Shown: one piece after another, positions 59,744 through 64,000 of the stretch
Numbering within the stretch: position 1 is the first letter of the stretch
Layout of the letters: every line of letters begins with the position of its first letter
Assembly (NCBI GenBank): GCA_947492995.1
Contig: CANLOU010000002.1
Location: 62,001 to 126,000 of the forward strand
DNA: 64,000 nucleotides
Reading direction: 5' to 3'
Source: an uncultured Litoreibacter sp.
Lineage (GTDB): Bacteria > Pseudomonadota > Alphaproteobacteria > Rhodobacterales > Rhodobacteraceae
Notes under the pieces: generated by a model
The model's input: the letters and a program-made list of their open reading frames with translations, nothing else
What the model was told of the DNA's origin: nothing
Databases searched by the model: none
Translations under genes and position numbers: made by a program

Positions 59744-60201
59744 GCATCAGCTCGCCGCTTTGGATGCGGGTGACGTGGGTGGGCATGCTGTTGGCCGCGT
59801 TCTACATGCCGCTGTATTTTCTGGGGATCGAGATCAAGGGCAGCGAAAACTGCGCGCCGGACATCCCGTGGTCAGATTACGAAGCCGTGCGAAGGCTGGC
59901 CAAATGGACGTGGGCGGGGTCGTTGGTCTCCGTCGGTGTTTTGCTTGGTTTGGCGCTCAGATACGCGCCGTCGCGCCTGCCTGCAAAGCCGGTCCTGGCG
60001 GCGTTCATCCTTTGGAAAGCCTTGACGCTGGCGCTGTCCTTCATCACGTCGCCCTCCTGTTTCGAGTCCTACGGCACCGAGGGCGCGTATAACCATCCCT
60101 TGGAGGCGACATTCACATTCGCCGGCATATTTGCATGGGCGCTGCTGTTGATTCTAATCTTCGTTGGCTTCGTCATGGGGCCGAGACACCCGAACGACTA
60201 A
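59740..60201 (+). CDS. hypothetical membrane protein
   Basis: Three to four hydrophobic segments; GTG start overlapping the upstream stop. Confidence 0.6.
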   Translation: MSISSPLWMRVTWVGMLLAAFYMPLYFLGIEIKGSENCAPDIPWSDYEAVRRLAKWTWAGSLVSVGVLLGLALRYAPSRLPAKPVLAAFILWKALTLALSFITSPSCFESYGTEGAYNHPLEATFTFAGIFAWALLLILIFVGFVMGPRHPND

Positions 60202-60845
60202 AGTGCCTCCAACGCATCGAGGTCGCAGGCTTGCAGCGCGGGCAGGGCGGCTTCGATCTTCTCTGCTGGCCAATCCCACCAATTGAGCTTCAGCAGGCGG
60301 GCGCGGGTGGCCTCGTCGAAGCGCATTTTGACCACTTGTGCGGGGTTGCCAGCTACCACCGCGTAGTCGGGAATGTCACCTGAGACCACGGCACGCGACG
60401 CGACAATAACGCCATTGCCAATCTTGGCAGACGGCATCACCATCGCCTCTCGCCCGATCCAGACATCATGGCCGATCACCACGTCCGCGCCCCGTCTGAG
60501 CGTCCTGCGGTAGCGGCCGATCTGTTCGGGATCGAAGATTGCAAACGGGTAGGTCGTCAGCCCCGACATGTCATGATTGGCGCTTTCGGTGATGATCTGA
60601 ACGCCCTCGGCGATCTGGCAGAACTTACCGATATGGATATGCTCCGGCACGCCGGGGAAGGTGTAGGGCGCAAGGCGGGCGGCAATGTCTGTGTCCCCGG
60701 TCAGGGTGTTGTCCGAATAGTAGGTGAACGCGCCGACATGGATGTTGGCGTGGTCCAGCGCCTCTGCCAGAAAGACGGTGCCGGGGTAGGTGGCACCATC
60801 GGGAAAGGTGACGGGGTTGCGTTTGGTGGGGTCAGGGAAGGTCAT
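60198..60845 (-). CDS. CatB/Vat-like hexapeptide-repeat acetyltransferase
   Basis: IHIGKFCQIAEGVQIITESANHDM; DVVIGHDVWIGREAMVMPSAKIGNGVIVASRAVVSGDIPDYAVVAGNPAQVVKMRF. Confidence 0.88.
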   Translation of the reverse strand: MTFPDPTKRNPVTFPDGATYPGTVFLAEALDHANIHVGAFTYYSDNTLTGDTDIAARLAPYTFPGVPEHIHIGKFCQIAEGVQIITESANHDMSGLTTYPFAIFDPEQIGRYRRTLRRGADVVIGHDVWIGREAMVMPSAKIGNGVIVASRAVVSGDIPDYAVVAGNPAQVVKMRFDEATRARLLKLNWWDWPAEKIEAALPALQACDLDALEAL

Positions 60846-61783
60846 GCGGTACCTGCTGTAATACGTTCCAGCCCCTCGCGCGGAGCCTCGCTGGTTGGGG
60901 TCTTGATGTCCCATGCGAGCCCGATGGCCTCCAACGCACGGATGAACCAAAAGCCTGGGTCCAGTTGCCCGCACTCGACCCCTAATTGAGCGGAATGCGG
61001 AAAGGCGTGGTGGTTGCCGTGCCAGTTCTCGCCAAAGCTCAGCAGGCCAAGCCCCGGCAGGTTGTAGCCCTGCACCGGCAGTCCCGCGATGCGCCAGCCC
61101 TGATGGCCTTGCCGGTGCGCATAGTGGCCGACCATCCAATGGCCGGTCAGCGACACGAAGACGCGCATGCAGACGCCCCACAGCACCCATGCCCAGCCAC
61201 CGGTTGCGAAAAGGATCAGGGCGAGCGGCAGCTGTTGCGCGAGCCACGTCCGTTCCACAAAGCAGTAGAACGGGTCGGAGGCCGTGGGCTGCTCGATCGT
61301 GAAGACGGGCGGCGCGTCCAGCCGGTATTCGCAATGCAACTGCCACCATGCGTCGCGCCAAAACCCCGCGCCGTGGCTTGGGTGGGGCGGGCAATAGGTC
61401 TGGCGCTGATGCCAGTCGCGGATGTCATGAGCGCGGATCATGCCGAAAGGTCCGGCCATGCCAACCAGAGTGCCGAGCCAGACCAGGAGCCGCTCCAGCC
61501 ACAAAGGCGCGGCGAAGCTGCGATGGATCAACAGCCGGTGCATACCCACCGAATGGCCCGCGCACAGGGTCACCGCAGATAAGGCCAGAAACACCAACAC
61601 CGCGCTCCAGTCCAAGAAAAACACGATGGCCAAAACCGCGCCCAACAGATGAAAAAAGTACCAAAGCGATTTCACGGGCACCCAGACAATGAGCCCCTTC
61701 GACGTGTCCGTCTCAGCCTGCGCCACGGCGCGCTCTGTTGAAATGAGGTGGGCACCTTGGGGGGCGCCAATGGCACTGGTCAT
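60842..61783 (-). CDS. fatty acid desaturase
   Basis: CAGHSVGMHRLLIHRSF and ENWHGNHHAFPHSAQLG histidine boxes; several TM segments. Confidence 0.82.
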   Translation of the reverse strand: MTSAIGAPQGAHLISTERAVAQAETDTSKGLIVWVPVKSLWYFFHLLGAVLAIVFFLDWSAVLVFLALSAVTLCAGHSVGMHRLLIHRSFAAPLWLERLLVWLGTLVGMAGPFGMIRAHDIRDWHQRQTYCPPHPSHGAGFWRDAWWQLHCEYRLDAPPVFTIEQPTASDPFYCFVERTWLAQQLPLALILFATGGWAWVLWGVCMRVFVSLTGHWMVGHYAHRQGHQGWRIAGLPVQGYNLPGLGLLSFGENWHGNHHAFPHSAQLGVECGQLDPGFWFIRALEAIGLAWDIKTPTSEAPREGLERITAGTA

Positions 61784-61825
61784 GCCGGGCAGGGTTGCTT
61801 GAAATCTACGAAATCGCAAGCGGCG

Positions 61826-63139
61826 TCAGCTGGCGCGTTTCAATGGACCGAGAAGCCCTTGCAAGGCACCACCTGTTTCCTCGCCCCGAAGCGCTGCCCG
61901 GATGCGCTGGAACTTCGGCTTCCCCCGTGTCGGTCCGGCAGACACAATCGTGACAGGTTGGGACAGCAACATCTGTGCGACACGGGACAGGTCCTCCAAA
62001 GTGACGGATTGGTAGGTGTCGCTGATCTCTTGAAAATTTTGCAGCGCACCGGTTTCCGCCAAATCGTACCGCATGTGGTCGACGCGAGAGGTCGGACGAT
62101 CGAGGCTCATATGCATGGCTGCGAATTGGCGCTGCTTGGCGCGGTCCAGTTCTTGCGCTGTCGGGTGCTTCGCGAAATCGCACAGGGTTGAGATCATCAG
62201 ATCCGTAATCTCCGGCATGTTGCGGGCTTCCCCAGTCGCCTCAAACGCCACCAGGCTTTGCCCTACAACGGTGTAGCATTCCGACCACGCGTCATAGACC
62301 AGCCCGCGGTCTTCCCGCAGCGTGTTCATGAACAGCGAATAGCCGTGCCCGCCAATGATGTCGTAATAAAGCTCGGCCACCAACTTGTCGCGCGTGGTGA
62401 ACGCGTGCATCGGGAAAATGAGCCTCAGCGTGCCTTCGTCTCCGCTATGGCCGATATGCAATTCGCCAGCGGCGTAGTTGAGCGGGGCGAGCACGCTTGG
62501 CTGGCCCATTGGCAGGTGCCCTAGTTCGCGATCAACAATGGCCACAAGTTTCGTGTGATCGACATTTCCGCAGACCGAAACGGTGATGTTCTCGCCGACA
62601 TAATTGGTGCGATGATGCGCCCGCAGATCGTCAATCGAGAGACTTGCAACCGTATCTTCGAATCCGATGATGGGCTGGCTTAAAGGGTGCTCCGGAAAAG
62701 CCTGATCATACATGGTTTCGCGCAAAGTGCAGTTAGGACATCCCCGGCAGCTTTCACGCTCAACAATTTTCTTTTCCAGCTCCAAATCCTCGGCGTTCAG
62801 CCGAGGTTGGCTGACCATCTCGCACATCAGCGCGACAGCATGGTCCACGTCCTGATGCAAAACCATGCCCTGATACACGGTGGAGTCCTCGTCGGTGACG
62901 GCATTTAGGTAGCCACCAGATAGGCCAAATGCCTGTTGAAGCTCATCGCCGGAGCGTTTTTCGGTGCCTCTGAACGCCATGTGTTCGAGAATATGCGAGA
63001 TACCTGCCTGGTCCTCCGACTCGTAGGCTGACCCGATATCGACAGCGATGGCTATCGCCACGCTTTGGAAATGCGGTGCGCTGTCGGAAAGAACGGTAAT
63101 GCCGTTGGCTAGGGTGCTGTGGTGTTGTTGCGGCTACAT
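61826..63139 (-). CDS. M16 family zinc peptidase; ATG at 63139-63137 followed by in-frame TAG (possible pseudogene; longest open frame begins GTG at 63061)
   Basis: HILEHMAFRGT HxxEH motif; conserved N-terminal strand LANGITVLSDSAPHFQSVAIAIAVDIGSAYE lies between the TAG and the GTG. Confidence 0.7.
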
Positions 63140-63317
63140 AATGACCTCAAATGAAATTTTGGTGGACCTTGCCGACTGAATACGTCGGTTTTTTGGCACG
63201 ATTGCGGTGCGAATTGGCGCTTCCGTCGCATTGACCCTCTGGACGCGCACGCGTAAAGATCACCCCAAGCCGCAAAGGCCCTGTCCGTCGAGGGGCAGGA
63301 ACACCAAGGAGACACCC

Positions 63318-63683
63318 GTGGACGAGCTGCTACGCGAATACTTACCCATCCTTATTTTACTGGCGATTGCGATTGGTTTGGGTCTGATCCTGATCCTTGC
63401 CGCCGTGGTGCTGGCGGTACGGAATCCCGACCCCGAAAAAGTGTCTGCCTATGAATGCGGTTTCAACGCATTTGACGATGCGCGGATGAAGTTTGACGTG
63501 CGCTTCTACCTCGTCTCAATTCTCTTCATCATTTTCGACCTCGAAGTCGCCTTCCTGTTCCCATGGGCCGTGGCCTTCAAGGATGTGGGGTTGCTGGGCT
63601 TCTGGTCGATGATGGTTTTCTTGGGCGTGCTGACAATCGGCTTCGCTTATGAGTGGAAAAAAGGAGCTCTCGAATGGGAGTGA
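63318..63683 (+). CDS. nuoA: NADH-quinone oxidoreductase subunit A
   Basis: [48 protein letters not shown]. Confidence 0.96.
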
Positions 63684-64000
63684 TGGCTGGCGCAAACACG
63701 GCTGGGTGGGACAAGGACGTTGCAACCCAAGAGCTGAACGCGGAACTGCAGGACAAGGGCTTCCTTGTCACCTCGACCGAGGACATCATCAATTGGGCGC
63801 GCACCGGGTCGTTGCACTGGATGACCTTCGGGCTGGCCTGCTGCGCGGTTGAGATGATGCACACTGCCATGCCGCGCTACGACATGGAACGGTTTGGCAC
63901 TGCGCCGCGCGCCTCCCCCCGTCAGTCGGACCTGATGATTGTTGCTGGCACGCTGACCAACAAAATGGCGCCTGCGTTGCGCAAGGTCTACGACCAGATG
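63674..64000 (+). CDS. nuoB: NADH-quinone oxidoreductase subunit B (partial, runs off the window)
   Basis: [37 protein letters not shown]. Confidence 0.95.

Follow-up and report, generated by a model that had tools for sequence, protein, structure and literature searches.

A probable recent nonsense mutation at codon 2 of an apparently horizontally acquired M16B peptidase gene in an uncultured Litoreibacter

Bacterial pseudogenes that carry one nonsense codon include failed horizontal transfers (PMC11078800). A start codon with a stop codon directly behind it has also been met in other settings. Ribosome profiling in Campylobacter jejuni revealed putative start-stop sites, and the same study refers to E. 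coli (PMC11955535). In E. coli, termination-reinitiation has been shown at start-stop sites (PMC9841429), and reinitiation is frequent in bacteria (PMC5972666).

The window examined here is a 64,000-nucleotide stretch of a contig from an uncultured Litoreibacter sp. (CANLOU010000002.1, assembly GCA_947492995.1). The initial annotation had pointed out that on its minus strand an M16 peptidase gene begins with an ATG (63139) followed directly by an in-frame TAG (63136), behind a good Shine-Dalgarno sequence at normal spacing. This reading is borne out (Table 1): positions 63148-63134 read GAGG-TCATT-ATG-TAG, within the minus-strand context ...CATTTGAGGTCATT-ATG-TAG-CCG-CAA-CAA-CAC-CAC-AGC-ACC-CTA-GCC-AAC-GGC-ATT..., and TTTGAGG ahead of the ATG is common to the window and its nearest orthologue. 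The string ATGTAG is found 19 times when both strands of the window are counted, in four cases with a Shine-Dalgarno-like tetramer upstream. The string itself is thus unremarkable, and what gives this copy its meaning is its position exactly at the start of the orthologues. A promoter scan found no sigma-70-like site, which carries little weight here, and an Rfam search found no known RNA family at 60000-64000.

Table 1. Features of the M16 peptidase locus and its neighbours (window positions)
Feature	Position	Strand	Evidence and remarks
Fatty acid desaturase-like gene, directly downstream of the M16 gene	60842..61783	-	Pfam FA_desaturase; also adjoins nuoA in sister genome G006, without the M16 gene
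Remainder of the M16B peptidase frame, 435 sense codons and TGA	61826..63133	-	Open reading frame; no other lesion
Glu127, putative third zinc ligand, then C-R-G-C-x-x-C	62729..62755	-	Shared without change by the five orthologues; missing from the 16 further M16 proteins that were aligned
Zinc motif HILEH (HxxEH)	62981..62995	-	H47, E50 and H51 invariant in the five-orthologue alignment A1
GTG, first later ATG/GTG/TTG, codon 27; sole such restart site before the zinc motif	63059..63061	-	Energy +1.9; no Shine-Dalgarno
24 codons from the TAG to the first later GTG, including conserved STLANGITV...APHFQS	63062..63133	-	13/19 identical to L155 from STL on
In-frame TAG, codon 2	63134..63136	-	Codon 2 is CAG in orthologue L155
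ATG, putative ancestral start codon of the M16 gene	63137..63139	-	14 codons to NGI, as from the ATG of L155 and L158
Shine-Dalgarno core GAGG, 5 nt upstream of the ATG	63145..63148	-	Sequence; duplex energy -6.8 kcal/mol; TTTGAGGGG precedes the ATG of the nearest orthologue, L155
nuoA, divergent neighbour	63327..63683	+	Oxidored_q4, E 1.7e-39; in 33/37 relatives searched

The frame beyond the TAG is that of an M16 protein, as had been proposed. Both domains are matched (Peptidase_M16, E 3.8e-32; Peptidase_M16_C, E 4.5e-26) and the conserved N-terminal segment is present. With both domains, the HxxEH motif and a downstream Glu, the encoded protein belongs to peptidase family M16, subfamily B; the ligand role of Glu127 is assigned by analogy with the M16 family. 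The zinc ligands and CRGCxxC are intact in the window copy, and the latter suggests a metal- or redox-sensitive site beside the active centre. The best PDB matches of the protein are 8q1b and 3hdi. The rare M16B subfamily to which it belongs, with five members recovered from the genome samples at family and order level, is two residues shorter near the CRGCxxC/Glu site than other M16 proteins.

M16 genes are found at four places in the host genome. A family-wide sample of 397 genomes contains four true orthologues of the window gene, in G571 (44.6% identity), G787 (43.9%), G554 (39.8%) and G730 (37.5%). The remaining M16 proteins of that sample stand well apart, at 32% identity or less. The orthologous loci are labelled L155-L158, of which L155, from G571, is the nearest, and their neighbour genes differ from those in the window. 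There is no orthologue in the 20 other genomes of the genus that were searched, nor in viral contigs. A class-level sample (385 genomes) yields distant M16 proteins alone, at 27-29% identity, and the contigs and plasmids of relatives give full-length matches at about 21-32% identity and none closer; over the relatives, genus and class samples the range is about 20-33%. A search of an order-level sample (395 genomes) with an orthologue profile recovers no further member, and scores fall from 736-758 bits for the two members in that sample to 294. One further locus, L051, was rejected as an orthologue; it reaches 42% in its best segment only and contains a masked stretch.

The orthologues indicate which start is ancestral. 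The gene in G571 begins ATG-CAG-ATC-GAC-CGC-CGT-CAC-ACG-ACG-CTT-TCG-AAC-GGG-ATT, those in the other three genomes GTG-ATT-GAC-CGC... (G787), ATG-TAC-GAC-GTT... (G554) and ATG-AAA-AAT-ACT... (G730). Counted from the start codon to the Ile of NGI, there are 14 codons in G571, 13 in G787, 15 in G554 and 14 in G730, against 14 in the window; the window distance recurs in L155 and L158, L156 falls one codon short of it and L157 exceeds it by one. Because these counts agree to within one codon, the ATG at 63139 can be taken as the orthologous start. Alignment of codon 2 across relatives, the check proposed at the outset, gives a sense codon in all four orthologues (CAG, ATT, TAC and AAA) and no stop near the start, so that the window has an in-frame stop exactly where its four orthologues have sense codons. 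This favours a nonsense mutation or a sequencing error. The lost codon was most simply CAG (Gln), which a single C-to-T change turns into TAG, although this assignment draws on one relative and codon 2 is variable among the orthologues.

The stretch between the TAG and the GTG at 63061 points in the same direction. It is the best-conserved part of the M16 protein: beside the identity to L155 given in Table 1, which compares with 173/410 (42%) in the rest of the protein, the residues from STL to the GTG are identical to L156, L157 and L158 at 11, 11 and 9 of 19 positions, each above its own rest. A segment that had long been untranslated would not be conserved in this way, and it was therefore presumably translated until recently. 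The GTG was correctly named as the first later ATG, GTG or TTG, as none lies earlier in frame. Had homologues begun at its equivalent, lacking the LANGITVL strand, the interpretation would have been different; the strand is present in all four orthologues, and the codons at the GTG position are GTC, GTG, ACA and ATT.

Taken together, the locus is probably best explained by a recent nonsense mutation in the second codon of an M16B zinc-peptidase gene gained by horizontal transfer, the leading option of the initial annotation and the one that the orthologues support by placing the ancestral start at the ATG, with a sense codon behind it. The ATG at 63139 would be the true, ancestral start of the acquired gene, and in the sequenced lineage a single, recent C-to-T change would have turned a sense codon 2, most simply CAG, into TAG. 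Ribosomes would still start at the Shine-Dalgarno/ATG and terminate at once, little or no peptidase would be made, and the gene would thus be freshly broken. The position, the frame, the orthologous start, the CAG of the nearest orthologue, the conservation and the intact remainder are seen in the sequences; the reality of the change, as opposed to a miscalled base, its recent date and the loss of expression are what we infer from them.

The state of the remaining gene can be examined for signs of decay. The 435-codon frame has no second stop and no visible frameshift. There are 3915 possible single changes in this frame and 127 of them (3.2%) lead to a stop; by a rough uniform calculation, the absence of any stop in the remainder keeps free drift below about 7% per site. 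Among the five copies, that of the window has the longest terminal branch (0.80; L155 and L156, measured from the same node, have about 0.56-0.59), and it differs at 36 of the 128 positions that are invariant in the other four, which could reflect an older relaxation or its lone position in the tree. Relative-rate (Tajima) tests give no significant acceleration (p 0.07 to 0.93). A single lesion and non-significant rate tests are as expected if the nonsense mutation is very recent.

The genomic setting suggests a gene that can be lost. In the sister genome G006, a GNAT-like acetyltransferase gene (named from sequence; L145 5333-6045) lies between the desaturase gene and nuoA, with no M16 gene. 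DNA similarity between the window and G006 ends at about 61834 and returns at about 63200, with sharp edges. Two further members of the genus, G020 and G002, were compared, and there the desaturase and Vat-like genes lack similarity as well. The best reading is that the M16 gene is a horizontally acquired orphan in an exchangeable slot beside nuoA. It appears dispensable, because it is absent from the 20 other genomes of the genus and a GNAT gene takes its place in G006; exchangeable, dispensable acquisitions are a kind of gene that is often lost. The desaturase-like gene is probably cotranscribed with the M16 gene, and the stop codon could have polar consequences for the desaturase and acetyltransferase genes that lie downstream.

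As a separate observation, the desaturase-like gene is paired beside nuoA with a gene for a Vat/CatB-like hexapeptide acetyltransferase (together 60198-61783, minus strand), and the same pair is found in G006. A search of 100 other genomes met a desaturase relative in just 5. The Vat/CatB-like acetyltransferase scores far below resistance-family cut-offs.

A base-call or assembly error, behind which the real genome would have a sense codon and an intact gene, is the foremost alternative and is unlikely. One base would account for everything, the remainder of the gene is intact and conserved, and the base was read from this one assembly. However, the assembly is of good quality, in 13 contigs with 99.14% completeness and 0.16% contamination, and consensus substitutions are rare in assemblies of this kind.

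It is rather improbable that the gene is leaky, with some protein still made through reinitiation at the GTG or near-cognate readthrough of the UAG, as in some bacterial pseudogenes. The GTG lies upstream of the HxxEH motif, and both the frequency of bacterial reinitiation (PMC5972666) and the start-stop case in E. coli (PMC9841429) offer a precedent. Yet the GTG stands 75 nt past the TAG with no Shine-Dalgarno sequence, it is not conserved in the orthologues, and a product started there would be without the conserved N-terminal NGITV segment. As for readthrough, the 36 tRNAs from a family search include no suppressor with a CUA anticodon, although this is weak evidence since the list is incomplete and also lacks tRNA-Tyr and tRNA-Ile. 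Pattern searches for tRNA-Tyr or its suppressor form found no tRNA, and a sub-threshold match at C1:644151 is not a tRNA according to ARAGORN. The missing tRNA-Tyr and tRNA-Ile of the host genome were probably overlooked by the search or lie in unassembled repeats. A related idea, to which we give only a slim chance, is that the TAG has become fixed in the species, with conditional UAG readthrough or restart at the GTG supplying the peptidase in a controlled amount, so that the start-stop pair would throttle translation of a newly acquired protease gene. If the TAG were fixed and protein still made, the locus would offer a natural example of translation being strongly throttled.

The other options that had been listed (an ATT start, readthrough and a regulatory AUG-stop element) gain no positive support. 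A minimal AUG-stop ORF regulating the peptidase, or the desaturase behind it, could be imagined from the good Shine-Dalgarno sequence and the sites reported in C. jejuni (PMC11955535), but an ATG-stop is found in none of the four orthologues, the ATG is apparently the gene's own ancestral start and no known RNA family lies nearby, which makes such an element very improbable. It is scarcely credible that translation starts at the ATT at 63100, the only rarer start codon ahead of the GTG, or has long started at the GTG, leaving ATG-TAG unused: both codons are in frame, but neither has a Shine-Dalgarno sequence (anti-Shine-Dalgarno pairing +1.2 and +1.9) and the sequence ahead of each is conserved in orthologues whose own start lies at the ATG position.

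As it stands, the locus would represent an ordinary recent gene inactivation, a well-made example of a common kind of broken gene. A gene finder that works from start to stop would shorten the M16 gene to the GTG, minus a conserved strand; a true start broken at codon 2 appears to be the better reading.

Compared with known systems, the M16 protein resembles M16B peptidases of the mitochondrial processing peptidase beta or bacterial processing protease type in keeping both domains, HxxEH and the downstream Glu. It differs in belonging to a rare subfamily, with C-R-G-C-x-x-C close behind the third-ligand Glu and two residues fewer there. With the start-stop sites of Campylobacter (PMC11955535) and E. 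coli (PMC9841429) the locus shares a start and an immediate stop, with a Shine-Dalgarno sequence, but the E. coli sites use overlapping frames and UGA, and the start-stop of the window, unlike both, stands in place of a long gene's start and is common to no orthologue. The locus would also resemble those bacterial pseudogenes that carry one nonsense codon, failed horizontal transfers among them (PMC11078800), as a dispensable gene of recent acquisition that is intact apart from a single premature stop. In contrast to those, the stop here falls at codon 2, so that not even an N-terminus would be made, and no decay is visible past one base.
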